Assembly (NCBI GenBank): GCA_902500825.1
Contig: CABVRX010000014.1
Location: 1 to 64,000 of the forward strand
Origin: an uncultured Nitrospira sp.
GTDB lineage: Bacteria > Nitrospirota > Nitrospiria > Nitrospirales > Nitrospiraceae
Length of the DNA stretch: 64,000 bases
Direction: 5' to 3'
Within the stretch, counting starts at the first letter, position 1; the number at the start of each line of letters is the position of its first letter. This document shows positions 5,984-14,203 of the stretch, piece after piece. The position numbers and the translations under genes were made by a program. The notes under the pieces are model-generated. The model ran no database searches. It was not told the DNA's origin and worked only from the letters and a program-made list of their open reading frames with translations.

Positions 5984-6286
5984 TCATCGAAGAATGTTGG
6001 ACTGAAGGCAAGGCACGGTCGCCGCGACGCCAGGCGCGTCGACGGTGCCGGCTTCGATGTGGCACGGCGTCTCACGACGCGGTGCCTGTCCCCGACCAGT
6101 TGAGCTCCCGCTCGACCTGTCCATAAACGCCTGCAAGACCAGTTCTCCCGAAAAGATACAGTCCAGCGCGTCCTGCTCCGATGTCCCGTCGCCTGCGTGC
6201 GAACGATACCGCAGTCCCCTCTTTCGTGCGGCCTCACCTACCTCCACGGTATGGCGGAAAATTCTGTCCTTCCTCATAAGTGCCAC
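5984..6286 (-). CDS. possible small hypothetical protein
   Basis: A 100-codon frame opposite to its neighbours. It starts with GTG at 6286, preceded on that strand by CAGGAGG about 11 bases upstream. It begins MALMRKDRIFRHTVEVGEAA and its first half has ordinary amino-acid composition and codon use; the C-terminal half looks less natural. No family recognised. It fills most of the 423-bp gap between the TrbM-like gene and 6400. It could equally be non-coding, so confidence is low. Confidence 0.25.
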   Translation of the reverse strand: MALMRKDRIFRHTVEVGEAARKRGLRYRSHAGDGTSEQDALDCIFSGELVLQAFMDRSSGSSTGRGQAPRRETPCHIEAGTVDAPGVAATVPCLQSNILR

Positions 6287-6399: not shown

Positions 6400-7032
6400 A
6401 TGCACAAAGATCGGTTGGCGACGCTCACTATGGACATTCTCATGAACCATCCAAGCAAGCGCATGGCCCTCGACGTGGCCTATTCGAGGCTCAGTCCATG
6501 GGCGCAGGCCGAGTGGGACCGCGCCCGCAAGGGCTGGTCCATCACCGAGCGGGCAGAACAGCTCGGGCATTCCATCCGCGAACAGCGGCGCTGCGATGAG
6601 AGTCTCATTCAACATATCGGTGCGGCCCTCGATGGACGAACCTTCGTGGTTCTCGACGCGACCTATTGCTTCATGACCCAGCGGATGCTCGACCGAACCA
6701 CGGGACGACGCGTGCCTCCTGACGTGGTGCGCCGCTTTCTCTCACAGCCCATCGCGAGCCTGCTTCTCAGCGCCAAGGCGCATCAGGATCTGAGACAGCG
6801 CGGAGTCCACAGCATCGGCGATCTCCTTCCCCATGCCTATGAATGGTTGTCGCCGAAGCGCTTAGCGCCGGGCAAGCCGGTAATGAACGTCCGCCTCTCG
6901 GTCCGACGCTGTCTCCGAATCCTGGGCATGGAGATGATCTTTCCCGAAATCCGACAACAGGAAATCTACTGCCCCTGCTGTGCGCACACCGAGACGGATG
7001 TGATGAAGATTCTCGCGTTAGCGAACGCATGA
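6400..7032 (+). CDS. unknown protein with RpoA C-terminal-domain-like region
   Basis: A 210-residue soluble protein; ATG 6400 sits 7 bases after an AAAGGAAGG ribosome site. The frame extends further upstream but without a ribosome site. The N-terminal 60 residues (MALDVAYSRLSPWAQAEWD) are of unknown type. About residues 125-185 (LLSAKAHQDLRQRGVHSIGDLL ... SVRRCLRILGMEM) resemble the helix-hairpin-helix fold of the RNA polymerase alpha-subunit C-terminal domain. That domain contacts DNA and regulators. A CPCC cluster lies near the C-terminus. A regulatory or nucleic-acid-binding role is inference only. Confidence 0.6.
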   Translation: MHKDRLATLTMDILMNHPSKRMALDVAYSRLSPWAQAEWDRARKGWSITERAEQLGHSIREQRRCDESLIQHIGAALDGRTFVVLDATYCFMTQRMLDRTTGRRVPPDVVRRFLSQPIASLLLSAKAHQDLRQRGVHSIGDLLPHAYEWLSPKRLAPGKPVMNVRLSVRRCLRILGMEMIFPEIRQQEIYCPCCAHTETDVMKILALANA

Positions 7033-7136
7033 CCACAGTCATAAGAAGCGGCGGGAATCCAGTCCGTTCGAGAAAGGCTGAATGAGCCACCCTGGTCCTG
7101 ATCGGCATCGTGCATTGCGGAATGTGTGAGAGGAGG

Positions 7137-7170
7137 AAAAGGGCGATGACCCTATGGGATCACCGCCCTT
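7137..7170 (-). terminator. hairpin terminator for the leftward gene at 7183
   Basis: An inverted repeat AAGGGCG(G/A)TGA ... CGCCCTT with one bulge and a short loop ends 12 bases downstream of the leftward stop codon. On the minus strand the stem is followed by TTTTCC, giving a Rho-independent terminator. On the plus strand it would also face the gene ending at 7032, but with no T-run there. Confidence 0.65.
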
Positions 7171-7182
7171 AAAAAGACGAGT

Positions 7183-7608
7183 TCAGGTAGATAAGGTTTC
7201 TCGACGTGCCCTCGTTCCAAAGAATTCCTGCTCTTTGAGATTGGCAAACCACGTCTGGGCAAACGCCGTCAAGTCTCGTTTGAGCATGGGAACCACGTGG
7301 GTGCGTGTTCCACGCTCGTCATACCGGTAGACTTCCTGGTACATCCCCAGATAGTCATTTCTGAACGACACCGGCTCAGCTGCCGCACCGTCTGGTAGGT
7401 GATGGAACATAAACACCATGTCGGGATCGCGCATGAGATCGCCATTCTGTTCCCCATAATGGCAGAGCGATACCAGACGATTGCCTTCCTCGCGTGAGCC
7501 GATCTCTTCGATGGACAAGGGCATGTACCCGGAAACGGTGATCCGGACGGCCCTCGCGCCACCGAGCAGCTGAATTAAGTCCTTGGCGAATTCCTGATAG
7601 ATTTTCAT
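7183..7608 (-). CDS. plasmid-type conserved hypothetical protein (DUF6908-like)
   Basis: About 141 residues. ATG 7608 is preferred over 7617 because an AAAGGA ribosome site then sits 8 bases upstream. The core LVSLCHYGEQNGDLMRDPDM ... FRNDYLGMYQEVY (about residues 45-95) resembles a small domain common on plasmids and in relaxase neighbourhoods (DUF6908 type; assigned from memory of the CHY-EQNGDLMRDP pattern). No catalytic motif or membrane segment is seen. It is read opposite to the transfer operon, together with 7674-7916, as a short leftward unit ended by the hairpin at 7137-7170. Function unknown. Confidence 0.65.
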   Translation of the reverse strand: MKIYQEFAKDLIQLLGGARAVRITVSGYMPLSIEEIGSREEGNRLVSLCHYGEQNGDLMRDPDMVFMFHHLPDGAAAEPVSFRNDYLGMYQEVYRYDERGTRTHVVPMLKRDLTAFAQTWFANLKEQEFFGTRARRETLST

Positions 7609-7632
7609 TGTATTCATCCTTTCTTACGTGTA

Positions 7633-7664
7633 GGAAGCCCCCGGCACGAAGGCCGGAGGCTTCC
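7633..7664. other. intergenic hairpin
   Basis: A near-perfect stem (GGAAGCC.CCGG / CCGG.GGCTTCC, one mismatch, 8-base loop) lies between the two leftward genes. Neither strand has a T-run after it, so it is more likely a processing or attenuation structure than a simple terminator. Confidence 0.5.
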
Positions 7665-7673
7665 GGTGAGCGT

Positions 7674-7916
7674 TCAGCGAACTGAATGCTCGTTGATCCA
7701 GACTTTCGCCTGTTTCGCGACCACCAAGAGTGCGTCAAGGTCCGCCGCTCCGAAGGACTCGGCATTCTTCCAGATGCCGTCCCTACCCTTGTACGAGCGG
7801 GCCACGGTCACGTTGTAAAACGGACCTTTCTCGCCGTCGTTCTTCCAGATGCTGGCCTTGATGCTGCTGCATCGAAGCGTGGTCACCGGCTTGGGTTTAA
7901 GTGCTTGAGGTGCCAT
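7674..7916 (-). CDS. small plasmid-type conserved hypothetical protein
   Basis: 80 residues. ATG 7916 is supported by an AAAGGAGACA ribosome site and by the MAPQALKPKPVTTLRCSSIK start. The compact core SIWKNDGEKGPFYNVTVARS followed by W..AESFGAADLDALLVVAKQA is a pattern seen in many small plasmid proteins: a short beta-rich domain with a terminal helix ending WI.E. The family has no established function that I know of. It is the first gene of the leftward pair. Confidence 0.7.
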   Translation of the reverse strand: MAPQALKPKPVTTLRCSSIKASIWKNDGEKGPFYNVTVARSYKGRDGIWKNAESFGAADLDALLVVAKQAKVWINEHSVR

Positions 7917-8565
7917 GTGTTGTCTCCTTTTGTTTGAGTTGATGTGTTGGCCTCTCACGAGGCGTGGAGGCCACACAGCGACGGAAAAGGAGACAGAGAG
8001 GCCGCCGCACCCTGGCGGGCCGGCGGGCGGAATGCGGAGGAATGCCCGTGAGAAAAGACGCCTTCATGGCGGCGCGCGGGCATGATCGACGCAGCCCGAC
8101 GGTGAAAAGCCAGGGCGGCGGCCAGACGCGCACAGGCACCGCATCTCAAGCCGGTCTCAGCTAATCAGCAGCAAGACGGTGCGGATCAGAGAAAACAGGC
8201 GAGAACACATGTTCTGCTACCCCTCGCAGTGGCCGTGTCTCGCTCGATACGGCGGAAGAGAGACAGAGAGTAATTGTGAGGCGAACTTGGTGCATTCGCC
8301 GGCAATCGAGAACCAAGGAGACTTCAGAGACGCCGCTGAACGCCGTGAATAGTGGAACGGCCTCTACGAAGCCGCAGGGGGAATGTCTCGTGAATCACTG
8401 CAGAAAATCGTGAGACTGGCGGCGGGTGTGACACCGGTACAGACTTCGAGGCTATGCGACGTCTTGGCAAGCCGAATGGCAATACCCTGGGACCGTCCCA
8501 AGGCCGGGATTTGATCTGGGATCAATAGAGCACCCTAAACGGTGACAGGCGTTTTACATGTTGTT
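7917..8565. other. intergenic stretch without a supported gene
   Basis: About 650 bp. The first 250 bp are GC-rich, with frames that have no ribosome site and no recognisable protein. From about 8500 onward the base composition becomes visibly AT-richer. This marks the edge of the inserted TrlF/AlbA block. No inverted repeats or transposase remnant recognised. Confidence 0.5.
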
Positions 8566-8958
8566 TCAGTAAAGTCCATGACTTCGGTAGTGAAAAGGAA
8601 TGCGCGTGAGTGAGACGGAATGAGCGGTAAACTGCTCCGCTATATACGGTTTACGACAAACCCTTAGGTGCCAAGATTTCTTCTTTTTGTTCTGGTCAGC
8701 GGCAAGCTGCCCATGCTTCTTGATTAGCTCTACTAGAGTTTCTATCTTTATCTTAAAGTTTCTATTAATTGTCACATCATTATGAGGGTGAAGATATTCC
8801 AAATGCTGACATTCTTCGCGGAGAATTACATTGCCATTACTATCAATCTCTAAACTTGCACTCTGATGCGTCTCAGTGTGACCGCTCGCACTTTCATTCG
8901 AACGATCATATAGAGTGATTATTTGTTGAGCGTTATGCGGTGGCTGTTGTTTTTGCAT
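8566..8958 (-). CDS. small hypothetical protein downstream of the AlbA_2 gene
   Basis: A 130-residue hydrophilic protein, last in the leftward AT-rich unit, starting 36 bp after the stop of the Schlafen/AlbA_2 gene. The N-terminal half is rich in Gln, Asn, Ser and His. The middle (REECQHLEYLHPHNDV, then INRNFKIKIETLVELIKKHG) could form a short beta-strand region plus a helix. No known family recognised. Codon use and AT content match the two genes upstream, which supports it as the third gene of the same transferred module. Confidence 0.5.
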   Translation of the reverse strand: MQKQQPPHNAQQIITLYDRSNESASGHTETHQSASLEIDSNGNVILREECQHLEYLHPHNDVTINRNFKIKIETLVELIKKHGQLAADQNKKKKSWHLRVCRKPYIAEQFTAHSVSLTRIPFHYRSHGLY

Positions 8959-8994
8959 TACTTCCCAAGACTCAGTACACTGCCTCTCTACTAA

Positions 8995-10146
8995 TCAATG
9001 GTCTCGTCGGATTATGGCTTTGAATTGGTTACCCACGTGATCATCCTGAAAATCAATATTGGGGTAAGCTCTCAAAGCTCTGATAATCCCGTTACCAAGA
9101 CCACGATAAGGAAGTACTCTCGTTGCGTATGACGCTAGAATTGGGTTCCTGATATTTGAATTACCGCTCTTTACATTTTCAAGCGTTAAATTGTTTGGAA
9201 GATGACCGGGGCTAATAATCTCTATTCGATTTGCAAAAACAAACAACCTTACCGGCGCCGTTACGAAGTAGTCTCTGTGAATCAGTGCGTTGGCTATAAG
9301 CTCCTCTAGCACGATCCTTGGAATTTCTGGGATGCCGGGCGCGTTGATTCCCTGATCGTCTTGCTTGTGCTTGATGTTCCCGAGAATAAAATTCATGCTT
9401 CTCTGAAAGATGTCCGCAATCTTCCCAGAGATGTCCTGACTGTCGATGTAGCTTTCCTGATCGACTTCGGTATTAGGATAAGAGATAGCTTTGACAATAA
9501 ATGCAGGCAGTTTGAAACTTGGATTCTTTGAGAAGAGTAACGCTCCGCTAATGTTGAAGACACCGTTCTTCATTAAGTTCATGTTCTCAAGAAGGGTGGG
9601 CAATGAAACTCTCTGCCTGTCTAAATCTTCGCCGAAAGTTCTCTCGAAAAAGGTTTCAAAATATTTAGTGTCTAAATCAGCGAATGTTAGTCCATGCGCT
9701 GGTATCTCATCTCCGTGGATTAAACCTGCGCTCTGGAACATCCTCTGCATTTCCTCCCGGGATGTTACCTTCCGTTTGTCTGCGCCGTTCTTCACCCAGA
9801 TAGCTCCGTTGTTATCCATGTAAGGCTTATTTATGCCATCAACCACGGTTACAACCATGATCAAGCCCCCAGGAGTTGCGACATTCTCTGTTTGTGCATT
9901 TATTGGGTAATGCACATTGTGAGTACACACATTGGCCACAAGTTCATTCAAGCGGCGTATATCCCCTGGATTCAATCCGGAAACAGTTCCGTTATCAGCT
10001 ACGCCTATAAAAAGTCGGCCTCCGCTTGAGTTGCTGAATGCCACCAGTTCCTCAGACAAGGACTGAGCATTCGTGACATTTGCCTTGAATTGGTGCTTGC
10101 TGTCTTCTCCTCTGGCTGCAAGCTCTAAGACTTCTGCGGCTTCCAT
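8995..10146 (-). CDS. Schlafen/AlbA_2-domain protein with C-terminal ATPase-like domain
   Basis: 383 residues. The N-terminus (about 1-120) is a Schlafen-AlbA_2 putative DNA-binding domain: GEDSKHQFKANV, then ELVAFSNSSGGRLFIGVADNG and GLNPGDIRRLNELV. The C-terminal half has the GHKL-like HATPase_c_4 pattern: LEELIANALIHRDY, IEIISPGHLPNNL and YRGLGNGIIRALR. Proteins of this architecture are often annotated as ATP-dependent helicase-related or transcriptional regulators; in defence islands AlbA_2 proteins occur beside nucleases and ATPases. Its start lies 22 bases inside the end of the TrlF-like gene, so the two are translationally coupled. Base use is AT-rich compared with flanking plasmid genes. 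Confidence 0.85.
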   Translation of the reverse strand: MEAAEVLELAARGEDSKHQFKANVTNAQSLSEELVAFSNSSGGRLFIGVADNGTVSGLNPGDIRRLNELVANVCTHNVHYPINAQTENVATPGGLIMVVTVVDGINKPYMDNNGAIWVKNGADKRKVTSREEMQRMFQSAGLIHGDEIPAHGLTFADLDTKYFETFFERTFGEDLDRQRVSLPTLLENMNLMKNGVFNISGALLFSKNPSFKLPAFIVKAISYPNTEVDQESYIDSQDISGKIADIFQRSMNFILGNIKHKQDDQGINAPGIPEIPRIVLEELIANALIHRDYFVTAPVRLFVFANRIEIISPGHLPNNLTLENVKSGNSNIRNPILASYATRVLPYRGLGNGIIRALRAYPNIDFQDDHVGNQFKAIIRRDH

Positions 10147-12761
10147 ATTTCGTAAATCCTTTTTCGTTGTGCGAAAGCCTCTTCACCACCTTCCAAGATG
10201 TCAACGATCTCCTGCTGCAACTGAGGACAATCGATACTGCCGCTCGTCATTGTGATTTTCTCATCTGAATAGCCGCAGGAAATGATCTGTTCGGCATCGC
10301 CCAGAACGGGAAAGTTTGCATTGTGTGTGGCAAAAATAAACTGTGTAGTTGGCTTGAGTGCACGAATAAGTTTTATAACGTCCTCATAGATCGTCTGATT
10401 GTCTAGATCATCCTCTGGTTGATCAATGATGATGACATCGTTCTCTCGCTGGCTGAGGACGAAGAGAATTAGCGCCGAAGCCCGTTGTCCAAGAGAGTGA
10501 TGTCTTAACTCTTTGCCACGATACTCAATGATAAAACGATTAGGAACTTGCCAAGTTAGCAGTGTCCCAAGATCTCGCGTGAAATATTCTTCGAAGACCT
10601 GAGCTGAACCTCCTGCAGCCTCCTTCGCTTTTTGAGGGTCCTTGTATATGGCACCAAAATCAGTGAAGCTATCCGCAAGAGCAGTAAAAGTTGACTCCCT
10701 TATGCGGCTACCTCTAAAGAAATCTTTCATAGAGTTGATGAAGGCATCCTTGTCCATTTTGAATTCTACCTTTATCATTAACGAAGAGTGGTTTTGGTTA
10801 ACCTTAGCAAGCTCCTGTTGAATCGCTTTGAACTCAGCATGCCACAGCTCATTCAAACTGGTCAGCTCAGTCAACAGCTTTTGTTTGATTTCGATTCTCT
10901 GCGAGTCTTCCTTTTCCAGGGCCTCAAGCATCTGTTTTGATTGCTCTACAATTGTTCGCAATTGGCGGAATTCGTCTGGTCGAATGGCCCTCGCTCCGGT
11001 ATCTTTCAATTCTGCTGCGAGCTTCCTTTCGATCTCGGCGAACGCTTCCTTAAGACCTTCACGGGAATATTCGAATTCTTTTGTTTTGGCTTGCAATCGT
11101 GAGAGGATCATCTTGCCTGACACGCTTGCGTCCTTGATCTTCATAAAGCTAACAATCAATTCATCATAGATTGCTAACAACTCCTTGAAGAAGGATTCGT
11201 TCTGTCTGGACTTGTAGGCCCGCTGATTTTTGAGGTCGTCTTCGTGGCGATTGACGAAAGCCTCCAAGTCAGACAAATACCCCCTTGCAAAAGAGACAGT
11301 TTGTAAGCACTTGCGAGAGTCTGCGTCGAAGTCCACCTGCTTCTGGAGTTTTTCTTCTACTCCATGTTCCTTGTAAAATTTCAGCCTGTGTTCGGCGTCT
11401 TGCTGCTTCGATCTATACTCATTTTTTTTATCTTCGGTCATAGCCAGCCGTTTAAGATTGCTGACCGCTTCGATGACCTTCTGTCTCTGTGCCTCAATGC
11501 GTGTTCGGGTTTCTCTAAGGTTCTCGCCAACAAGTTTTTCGACAAGGTCCTTCTCAAATCCCTCGCCAGTGCTGGACAGATCCCTTTGACCGAAATAAAT
11601 AGGTTTACTTAAAACGGTTTCTCGGATCGAGACGCCCGGTTGAACAACACCTTCCACATACACATCGGGTTTCTCCAGGTTTATGCGTCGGATTTCGTAA
11701 CTCTGTCCCCTTTCATCGACTGCTTGGATAGTGATTTTGCCACCACTACCGAGTGTGTGTCCCACTAGGGCCTTTTTGTAGTCGCGGTCCAGAGTCTTTT
11801 CCCCGAACGGTATGTCAAGCGCGTAGCGTATCGCTTCCAGGATTGACGACTTGCCGCTTCCTCGGATACCAATGAGCGTGTTCAATTCCGGAGAAAAATT
11901 GATCGTTTTTCCATGAAGGACTCCACCCTCGAAGGTCGCACTGAGAATATGCGATCTCTCATGCTTGCGGGGCTCGGTCGAGAGGCGGTTAGGATAATCG
12001 AGAAGAGCGTATTTTACCGCCTCAAACGTGAAATCGCCGATCTTTAAAAAACATGTCTTTCCTTGTCCTATCTGATCTACCGTCTTGCAGTCTGATCCCT
12101 CCACTTCGGCGGGGTACCAGTCTCCGAGCCACTCGCGAACTTTCTCACGTTCTGTTCGTGTTCGCACCTTCTGAAAGCCAAGCGTCCGCCTACGAAAAAG
12201 TTCATCCTCCGCTAGATCCTTAATGCGCCCACCAGCTAGGCCGCCCCATAACCCGTTTTTTTCCTCGACATGCGCAAAGACAATAAAGTAGTCCCTTTCA
12301 AACTTGTTAAGTTCCCTGATTGTATCTATTAGGTCATGGTTGGACCTGCTATTCTCGTTCTCGAAATTGCTTTGTGTTGCAAATGTAACATTGATGAAAT
12401 TTTGAACATAGTTCGTGTTTTCAGGATTACGTACCCATTCATCACTGAAGACCATCACCGCGTGTACTCCGTTTGAACCATCCTTTACCGACAGTTCCAT
12501 GCCCGGTAGCAGGAGGATCTCCACCTTCCGCGCCTGCTTCTGCAAGACCTTGAATTCTTGAAGATCAAACTTGTTATGATTAGCAATCACTCCAATCCGA
12601 ATACTGGCTCTCTTCAAGCCTTCAACGTATGATGCTACGAAGTAAGATTCTTCTCCTGCATACTTAAACTCTTTGTCCCTCCGTGTATGCAAATGAAAAT
12701 CGGCCCGCACCCAATCGGTTCCATGTTGAAATACGTCAAAGGATTCGTTGTCTGCACTCAT
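10125..12761 (-). CDS. TrlF-type PHP-domain plus SMC-like AAA ATPase
   Basis: 878 residues. The N-terminal PHP (polymerase/histidinol phosphatase) region begins RADFHLHTRRD, then GVIANHNKF and LLPGMELSV, the metal-binding His/Glu motifs of that fold. An ABC/SMC-like ATPase follows: Walker A GIRGSGKSSILEA (about residue 297), a long central coiled coil (about 420-680), an LGQRAS signature, Walker B VIIIDQPEDDLDNQ (about 780) and H-loop FATHNANF. This matches the TrlF family of AAA-like ATPases. PHP domains can be phosphoesterases or nucleases, so an ATP-gated nucleic-acid or nucleotide processing enzyme is plausible. It leads the leftward operon with the AlbA_2 gene. A role in phage or plasmid defence is inference from architecture and location. 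Confidence 0.87.
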   Translation of the reverse strand: MSADNESFDVFQHGTDWVRADFHLHTRRDKEFKYAGEESYFVASYVEGLKRASIRIGVIANHNKFDLQEFKVLQKQARKVEILLLPGMELSVKDGSNGVHAVMVFSDEWVRNPENTNYVQNFINVTFATQSNFENENSRSNHDLIDTIRELNKFERDYFIVFAHVEEKNGLWGGLAGGRIKDLAEDELFRRRTLGFQKVRTRTEREKVREWLGDWYPAEVEGSDCKTVDQIGQGKTCFLKIGDFTFEAVKYALLDYPNRLSTEPRKHERSHILSATFEGGVLHGKTINFSPELNTLIGIRGSGKSSILEAIRYALDIPFGEKTLDRDYKKALVGHTLGSGGKITIQAVDERGQSYEIRRINLEKPDVYVEGVVQPGVSIRETVLSKPIYFGQRDLSSTGEGFEKDLVEKLVGENLRETRTRIEAQRQKVIEAVSNLKRLAMTEDKKNEYRSKQQDAEHRLKFYKEHGVEEKLQKQVDFDADSRKCLQTVSFARGYLSDLEAFVNRHEDDLKNQRAYKSRQNESFFKELLAIYDELIVSFMKIKDASVSGKMILSRLQAKTKEFEYSREGLKEAFAEIERKLAAELKDTGARAIRPDEFRQLRTIVEQSKQMLEALEKEDSQRIEIKQKLLTELTSLNELWHAEFKAIQQELAKVNQNHSSLMIKVEFKMDKDAFINSMKDFFRGSRIRESTFTALADSFTDFGAIYKDPQKAKEAAGGSAQVFEEYFTRDLGTLLTWQVPNRFIIEYRGKELRHHSLGQRASALILFVLSQRENDVIIIDQPEDDLDNQTIYEDVIKLIRALKPTTQFIFATHNANFPVLGDAEQIISCGYSDEKITMTSGSIDCPQLQQEIVDILEGGEEAFAQRKRIYEIWKPQKS

Positions 12762-13216
12762 TTGGGGCTCCTATGTTACTCAGTCATGGTCTACCATGGG
12801 CCAGATCTCAAGATCTGAACAAAGGATGATACGCTTAGGACCCTTGAAAATCGAGAGAGGATCGGCAATTCAATACTTATAGAAGAGGCATGTTAACGGA
12901 AGGTCCTCTTTTGGTTGAACATTTTATAAGCACAAAATTTAGAACGTCCTTCAATGCTCTGATTGAGGACGGGAGATAGCTACCACTGGGAAGCGGGATT
13001 TCGAGGCTTAGGAATCAGAATTCTGGCAGTTTTAGGGACACAGTGGCAGGACACCTCCGCAGGCCTCGACAATCGTGCGAACAACTTCCCTTGAATCTTC
13101 TAAGGACCGTCATAAAACAGTCTGTCGTTTACGGGACGCCTTCCAAGTCATTGTCCTCCTTCGTGCTGCTATAGGGTCGATCTTCGTTCCCGTCATCTTT
13201 GATAATGCGGACCATC
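12762..13216. other. intergenic stretch without a supported gene
   Basis: 455 bp between the TrlF-like gene start and the relaxase stop. It should hold the leftward promoter for the TrlF/AlbA_2 unit near 12770-12900, where the sequence is AT-rich, but no clear -35/-10 pair stands out. No coding frame with a ribosome site was found. Confidence 0.4.
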
Positions 13217-14203
13217 TCATCGGTCATGATCTTTCCCCCGTGACCTCTCTGTGTCCGGAATGCGGCCTTGTTCCCCTAGATAGCGAACCAGGTCTGCCGC
13301 CAGTTGACGGTCGTCTCCACGATCCGATCGTGCGAGCGTCTTCATGACTTGTTCGTAGTGATGCATCACCTCACGCTGTTTCGTTGGTGTATGGGTCTGT
13401 CGTTTCTGGCGATCGACGAGCTTTGCCTTCGTTGTGTGATCGAGCAGATGTTGAACCTTCCAGCGTTCATGTGTGGTGCGGTGAATCCGGCTCGTGGTGG
13501 TGGCCTCAATCCCATGCTCCCGTAACGCCTCTGCAAACCCCTCGCGCCAGCGTTGCAGATCAGCCTTTCTCGGATTCAAGCGGACGCCGTCCAAACCAGC
13601 CGCTTTCACCGTCAGGTGAACGTGCGGATGCGGGGATGGATGCGGATCCGGATCGGTCTCGAAGGTGTGGAGCACCATGGCATATTGAAACCCTGCAAAC
13701 TCCCGTTTCGCGAAGTCTCGAACCGCCCGTTGGACTGATAATGGATTGGTCCGTTTCGGCATCGACAAGACAAGATGAAAGGCATCCCGCATCGTCGAGT
13801 CCGCCGGGATCGGTATGCCGCCATCTCGCCATTCCACTTTCAGGTCGGACAAGGCGTCTTTCCCTCGAATCACTTGCCCGTCTTGATCCTCGATCTCGAT
13901 TTGGCCATCGCGCGAAATGTACGTGAGGTTGTTCGATATCCCTCGCATCCCGGACGGCGCCTTGGCGAGTTTCACCATCACTTGTGGCGCACGCCGGACC
14001 ATATCCTGCAGCTTCTGTCGCACATAGTTCGCGCGACCCTGAGGCGTGCCAAGCCTCCCACTGGTCCTGGCAGATTTAACCGCACTGAGACGAATCCCTT
14101 TCTTGCCGGGATGCTGGCGTGGCGGGGTGGTAGTAGAGACGTTGAAGAGCCGACTCCCCCACTCGTCCAGACGCTCATCGATGGAACTGATAGCAGGCGT
14201 CAT
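13217..14203 (-). CDS. MobP/VirD2-type relaxase
   Basis: 328 residues. A relaxase nicks oriT and stays bound to the 5' end for transfer. Seen: motif SNNLTYISRDGQI (about residue 90), an alpha-rich segment LVLSMPKRTNP, and the signature metal-binding motif HPHVHLTVKA (about 193-202), which supplies the HxH triad. The catalytic Tyr would be in the N-terminal segment (ANYVRQKL or TYISRDG are the visible candidates). It is short, lacking the long C-terminal primase or LPD7 part found in many relaxases; an LPD7 protein is encoded separately at 4481. Its ATG overlaps the upstream MobC-like stop (ATGA). Confidence 0.88.
   Translation of the reverse strand: MTPAISSIDERLDEWGSRLFNVSTTTPPRQHPGKKGIRLSAVKSARTSGRLGTPQGRANYVRQKLQDMVRRAPQVMVKLAKAPSGMRGISNNLTYISRDGQIEIEDQDGQVIRGKDALSDLKVEWRDGGIPIPADSTMRDAFHLVLSMPKRTNPLSVQRAVRDFAKREFAGFQYAMVLHTFETDPDPHPSPHPHVHLTVKAAGLDGVRLNPRKADLQRWREGFAEALREHGIEATTTSRIHRTTHERWKVQHLLDHTTKAKLVDRQKRQTHTPTKQREVMHHYEQVMKTLARSDRGDDRQLAADLVRYLGEQGRIPDTERSRGKDHDR

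Follow-up and report, generated by a model that had tools for sequence, protein, structure and literature searches.

The stretch analysed here, 64,000 nucleotides of contig CABVRX010000014.1 from an uncultured Nitrospira sp. (assembly GCA_902500825.1; hereafter the window), carries two coupled genes, trlF and trlG, which we read as the Temperature Restricting Locus (TRL) operon travelling as cargo on an element that is conjugative or mobilisable, and serving most likely as an accessory immunity module, a reading to which we give a probability of about 0.5. Rather than a novel type of system, TrlFG is probably an immune module that can be carried from one context to another. Indeed, the initial annotation had proposed an undescribed defence module, whereas the pair corresponds to the trlR-trlF-trlG operon named in Photorhabdus laumondii in 2020 (PMC7554251), and TrlF is a named NCBIfam family. 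The defence role proposed at the same time is probably correct, being supported by the placement of the pair inside restriction-modification (RM) and bacteriophage exclusion (BREX)-like operons and by its position in a slot for defence cargo. The recurrent embedding in RM and BREX operons and two active-site changes are the observations added here; a limited search of the open-access literature found no earlier statement of either.

The first gene, trlF (10125-12761, minus strand), encodes an 878-residue protein in which a PHP domain is fused to a Rad50/SMC-type ATP-binding cassette (ABC) ATPase bearing a long coiled coil. The second, trlG (8995-10146, minus strand), whose start overlaps the end of trlF by 22 bases, encodes a 383-residue protein with a Schlafen-type AlbA_2 domain followed by a GHKL-type HATPase_c_4 domain, as assigned from Pfam, a 46-member alignment (A1) and an AlphaFold model. 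Both large open reading frames (ORFs) and their overlap stand as first annotated. The TrlF assignment comes from a match to NF045780 (TrlF_fam_ATP) at 566.8 bits, against a curated cut-off of 350, that spans residues 14-870 of the protein and positions 2-943 of the 944 in the model. Both large proteins and the order trlF then trlG are shared with the TRL operon, and the domain positions of TrlG are nearly identical: the Photorhabdus protein has AlbA_2 at 14-128 and HATPase_c_4 at 298-365 (PMC7554251), and Pfam places SLFN_AlbA_2 at residues 14-127 (69.9 bits) and HATPase_c_4 at residues 297-361 in the window, in line with the domains first annotated. The window pair differs in sitting on a mobile element and in having no trlR-like gene upstream, a relaxase gene lying 455 bp upstream instead. 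Other TRL homologues have been reported in Vibrio and on pYR3, a plasmid of Yersinia ruckeri (PMC7554251).

In Photorhabdus, growth arrest at 36 °C was relieved by suppressor mutations confined to trlG, reintroducing the operon by complementation brought the arrest back, and deletion of the whole operon was tolerated without harm (PMC7554251). All 16 distinct suppressor alleles counted from Table 1 of that paper lie in trlG; trlF, the larger gene, has none. If need were equal per codon (about 30% expected in trlG), the chance of such an outcome would be about 6e-9, a figure that sets aside possible harm from the loss of trlF itself. Because all 16 alleles fall in trlG, TrlG would be the arresting part and TrlF would be either dispensable for arrest or restraining; on this genetic evidence TrlG is the probable growth-arrest effector. 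The initial annotation had seen TrlF as a nuclease effector with a DNA-sensing partner, and these roles are probably reversed, given the genetics and the DNA-binding SMC architecture of TrlF. The loss-of-function positions S16, V35 and A36 are identical residues in the window TrlG, as are R126, P318, S331, N335 and G354 with an apparent shift of one position.

The pair was followed in 80 loci holding the closest TrlG relatives in named genomes. In 41 of these, from many phyla and with plasmids included, trlF is the gene immediately upstream of trlG, so that the co-occurrence of the two large genes is conserved and wide, and their frames overlap wherever both genes are called. TrlF and TrlG distances are correlated (r = 0.88 over 40 pairs, the best of 2000 permutations giving 0.26). 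In the TrlG tree, all trlF-coupled TrlG, 45 in number, belong to a single starred group of 61 that also contains 16 uncoupled ones, and a second starred group holds 21 longer TrlG-like proteins that are never trlF-coupled. Tree neighbours often belong to different phyla, which suggests horizontal transfer; many of the relatives are metagenome bins, whose individual host labels may be wrong. Taken together, the sequence comparisons suggest that TrlFG is a coupled, horizontally moving unit. It is frequent on conjugative plasmids, chromosomal copies also being common, and it adjoins mobilisation genes both in the window and on Pseudomonas plasmids. The distribution is sporadic, with a TrlF this close in 3 of 79 genomes of the genus. 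No near DNA match to the window trlFG was found in E. coli genomes; the version carried by pNDM is present in 38 of 5426 of them at a coverage of at least 80%.

Some loci show other arrangements. TrlF without TrlG is common on plasmids, including conjugative ones such as an E. coli IncF plasmid (L132) and the Citrobacter plasmid pPSV (L092), and this solo TrlF may have a function of its own. On a Nitrospira contig (L009), which holds the nearest TrlFG and by it pointed to Nitrospira as the probable genus of the window, nucleotides 1-1424 correspond to window 8995-10400; the C-terminal 89 residues of TrlF are 93% identical and TrlG only 75%, a contrast that may reflect recombination, or divergence at unequal rates, where trlF meets trlG. 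In two short contigs (L058 and L076), two or three TrlG-like genes stand in a row; one of them has about 50% identity to TrlG, and the rest are distant.

Placement inside other defence operons recurs. On pNDM-1_Dok01 (IncC) and on an IncA plasmid, the pair forms part of an hsdR-trlF-trlG-hsdS-prrC-hsdM arrangement in which PrrC scores 471 bits. Elsewhere it stands between a PglX-type methyltransferase (MTase) and an SNF2 helicase (L013), next to PglZ (L014), with a type III MTase and restriction endonuclease (REase) (L048, L053, L075, L082) or with HsdR, HsdM and HsdS (L009, L019, L023). RM or BREX genes lie alongside in 9 of the 41 coupled loci, and in 12 when looser defence-like neighbours are admitted, namely nSTAND3-Mrr (L035), GmrSD (L040) and a C5-MTase two genes off (L045); many contigs are short, and these counts cover those neighbours that were scanned. 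An MTase gene stands directly upstream of trlFG in 5 loci, against roughly 0.1-0.2 expected by chance from a baseline of about 2 PF01555 and 3 PF02384 matches (about 5 MTases) per Nitrospirales genome. The longer TrlG-like proteins (472-527 residues), which form the separate starred clade and never stand by trlF, also adjoin hsdR or hsdS of type I RM systems (L073, L077, L080, L084, L085).

In the window, the pair occupies a variable cargo slot (7024-13193), delimited by nucleotide synteny with a sister element (L121) and flanked by mobC-mobP1 at one end and, at the opposite end, by the gene at 6280 with the transfer genes. The MobP1-type relaxase (13217-14203, minus strand), assigned from domain and family matches, belongs to the flank outside the module. 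Of 23 genomes in which it was sought, all from one genus and with that of the window among them, 9 have it, and in the other carriers it is 73-80% identical. One of these genomes (G003, L121) keeps the whole backbone, homology stopping at window position 13194 and resuming at 7023, and holds in the slot 9.4 kb of unrelated cargo with a PglX-like MTase and IetAS. After the relaxase, three more (G007, G006 and G012) carry a set of helicase, MTase III and REase III genes, the helicases being 90% identical. Cassettes within such sets encode AbiU (L124), IetA-IetS (L125) or a Lamassu-like ATPase with a 429-residue protein (L126). Since sister elements carry defence cassettes there, the slot of the window can be regarded as a defence cargo slot. 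Composition agrees with the mobile, AT-rich insert first described: the trlFG block has a guanine-plus-cytosine (GC) content of 44-48%, against 55-61% in most flanking kilobases, and its GC at third codon positions (GC3) is 0.48-0.51, against 0.63-0.69 in the flanking mobilisation and transfer genes. A promoter and terminator scan of the region gave fewer hits than shuffled sequences.

The three sister loci L124, L125 and L126 form a natural cassette-exchange series, with one backbone and three unrelated cassettes in one slot; the 429-residue gene beside the Lamassu-like ATPase (L126, 11591-12880) has no PADLOC match. The same backbone, at 42-55% identity, in L053 carries the trlFG cassette between the MTase and REase genes, not between helicase and MTase.

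At the protein level, TrlF is 52-69% identical over its whole length in most other loci and 41-50% in more distant ones. Pfam recognises AAA_21/SMC_N in it, and the ABC/SMC motifs quoted at the outset are present and near-invariant across 41 aligned relatives: GIRGSGKSS at residues 298-306, LGQRAS at 757-762, IIIDQPEDD at 777-785 and the H-loop ATHNAN at 811-816. On the minus strand, the Walker A GIRGSGKS (residues 298-305, nucleotides 11847-11870) occurs in all or all but one of the 41 sequences, the ABC signature LGQRAS lies at 10476-10493, the near-invariant Walker B/D-loop IDQPEDDLD (residues 779-787) at 10401-10427, and the coiled coil (residues about 402-656, seen as helices in the AlphaFold model) at 10794-11558. 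The PHP domain (residues 16-264, nucleotides 11970-12716) has no match among the Pfam PHP models; its assignment comes from the NCBIfam TrlF and Ppl matches, a conserved ligand set and the predicted fold. Positions H23, H25, D29, H62, E89, H100, H164 and D224 are conserved across the 41 sequences and in a four-way check that includes one TrlF without TrlG. The metal-ligand set of the annotated PHP active site thus holds for seven ligands (H23, H25, H62, E89, H100, H164 and D224), which are invariant or nearly so, and fails for the usual last His, replaced by Lys226 here and by Lys throughout the TrlF family. The solo TrlF of pPSV also keeps this Lys.

In the AlphaFold model of the whole TrlF (mean pLDDT 85.8), residues 16-264 have EndoQ as nearest fold (Z 17.8 over 219 residues at 3.3 Å), the matches including an EndoQ-DNA complex, and the remainder matches SMC, Rad50 and MukB heads (Z 15-18). 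A profile of the PHP domain alone matched no PHP structure by sequence, so the likeness to EndoQ is one of fold only. TrlF is thus an SMC-type ATPase whose PHP domain resembles EndoQ in its predicted fold. It is not Ppl, as NF042955 gave 147.5 bits against a cut-off of 1000; PADLOC likewise gave no full-length match, the best being a partial one to Ppl at 102 bits, mostly over the ATPase end.

For TrlG, the model (pLDDT 88.9) places at the N-terminus (first 113-142 residues; AlbA_2/Schlafen core at 9766-10107, minus strand, with support from conservation) a domain matching SLFN5, SLFN11, SLFN13, SLFN14 and the tRNase domain of SAMD9 with Z about 10 over 108-140 residues, and SLFN12 is matched by the sequence profile (E 8e-6). 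The C-terminal part, with the GHKL-like HATPase_c_4 domain at 9064-9258 on the minus strand, resembles SpoIIAB and histidine kinases in fold (Z 9-10). Over its full length, the protein aligns with DIP2311 (3lmm) at Z 21.8 and a root-mean-square deviation of 14, the latter indicating that the domain arrangement differs despite the score. PADLOC gave no full-length match for TrlG, the best being a partial one to a pAgo model at 57.8 bits. The N-terminus is therefore modelled as a Schlafen tRNase core fold. Its Glu-Glu-Asp triad, whose positions are those known in SLFN11, SLFN13 and SLFN14, is incomplete: E14 is invariant and D51 usual, and the second Glu is Gln19, a Gln found in 40 of 41 TrlF-coupled rows and in all 40 other rows of the alignment. 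Two AlbA_2 paralogues in the genome of a relative keep Glu at this position.

In the mechanism proposed for an immune TrlFG, TrlF would be an SMC/Rad50-like ATPase sensing foreign or damaged DNA, which its PHP domain would process and possibly cut, and TrlG would be a Schlafen/GHKL effector stopping growth, either alone or on a signal from TrlF or from a partner restriction system. Arrest by TrlG would then be a second line of defence for cases in which the linked RM or BREX system has failed, in an abortive infection modelled on PrrC beside type I RM. The trigger, the signal between TrlF and TrlG, the active-site chemistry of either protein and any protection against phages are our inferences. 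More tentatively, TrlFG could be a movable abortive-infection cassette able to join type I RM, type III RM and BREX-type operons alike, in which a Glu-to-Gln Schlafen, restrained or triggered by a PHP-SMC ATPase, halts growth once the primary system is defeated, and which shares its Nitrospira cargo slot with other defence cassettes such as IetAS and AbiU.

Several observations weigh against an immune role. No TrlFG is known to protect against phages or plasmids, and no open-access text treating TrlF or TrlG together with phages was found. No RM genes adjoin the pair in the window, and the coupled loci other than the 9 and 3 counted among the 41 have ordinary, unscanned or cut-off neighbours. 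TrlF and TrlG are each found without the partner and hence are not an obligate pair. Finally, Gln19 in TrlG and Lys226 in TrlF stand at usual active-site positions, and these changes make the catalytic activities of both proteins uncertain.

Part of this evidence would fit a doubtful but serious alternative in which TrlF is the effector, an EndoQ/SbcCD-like nuclease-ATPase degrading foreign DNA, and TrlG a nucleic-acid-binding subunit for targeting or regulation. The conserved PHP ligands, the closeness of the PHP fold to EndoQ, including its complex with DNA, and the single-gene anti-phage relative Ppl, which combines PHP and ATPase, all agree with it, as do the many TrlF without TrlG, such as those of E. 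coli and Citrobacter plasmids, and the Gln at the catalytic-Glu position of TrlG, which suits a binding role. However, with all 16 arrest-relieving alleles of Photorhabdus in trlG, the toxic output needs no TrlF there, and some type I RM operons hold a TrlG relative with no TrlF.

That Photorhabdus yielded no trlF mutants is also what one would expect if TrlF restrained a TrlG toxin for the benefit of the mobile element, by addiction or, in a related version, by exclusion of competing plasmids. This explanation, in keeping with the adjoining mobilisation genes in the window and on Pseudomonas plasmids and with the frequency of the pair on conjugative plasmids, is nevertheless unlikely, as chromosomal copies and copies inside RM or BREX-like operons are common, TrlG occurs without TrlF and the whole Photorhabdus operon can be deleted without harm. 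It is very improbable that the pair is a stress-regulated growth-control operon, as its Photorhabdus name of temperature restriction implies, and lies in a defence context by coincidence: although arrest at 36 °C is the sole published phenotype, temperature is plausible as an accidental trigger, and the operon is mobile, sporadic within the genus and recurrent inside RM or BREX-like operons.

Two further genes were considered around the pair. No same-strand ORF of at least 60 residues lies between trlF and the relaxase gene, and nothing in the window resembles the 79-residue genes that are candidates for trlR. These HTH_73 genes, found upstream of trlF on pYR3 (L089, 5285-5524) and in a Pseudomonadales bin (L033, 5116-5355), are 88% identical and probably represent the trlR family. 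Most trlFG loci have no trlR, which is why it is not required here for the TrlFG label. Downstream of trlG, a 130-residue ORF (8566-8958, minus strand; GC 0.42, GC3 0.39), initially suggested as a third component, does exist and is not counted as one: it is not conserved with the pair, and searches of Pfam, NCBIfam, PADLOC, plasmids, the 80 TrlG loci and a further 78 genomes from the genus gave no match.

TrlF and TrlG have been known only from a temperature phenotype, yet they are carried by clinical IncC resistance plasmids and by many environmental elements. Their repeated placement in RM and BREX-like operons, once beside prrC, leads to the hypothesis of a shared backup effector for modification-based immunity, and the Glu-to-Gln change of the Schlafen domain, with the Lys of the PHP domain, offers a test of how far these active sites can drift.

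Among known systems, the single-gene anti-phage system Ppl (NF042955) shares with TrlF the order of a PHP domain followed by an SMC-type ATPase; it differs in acting as one gene, and TrlF scores far below its cut-off. TrlG can be compared with bacterial Schlafen RNases carrying a C-terminal minimal histidine kinase, which, according to PMC12839542, itself citing a 2025 preprint, occur in BREX loci; in this recent survey, Schlafen-kinase proteins are put forward as suicidal effectors that back up BREX. Both combine an AlbA_2/Schlafen domain with a GHKL-like domain inside modification-based defence loci, whereas TrlG, set against the description given there, has Gln for the second Glu, no extra winged helix-turn-helix seen and a coupling to TrlF. 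The functional model is PrrC, which PMC2610378 describes as kept silent by the type I RM enzyme to which it is linked and as switched on by an anti-restriction factor of a phage. The RM-linked ATPase anticodon nucleases PrrC and RloC (PMC2610378) resemble the TrlFG pair in their SMC/ABC-type ATPase and their association with type I RM operons, and differ in having an unrelated nuclease domain and an effector function held within one polypeptide; on pNDM-1_Dok01, PrrC and TrlFG share one operon.

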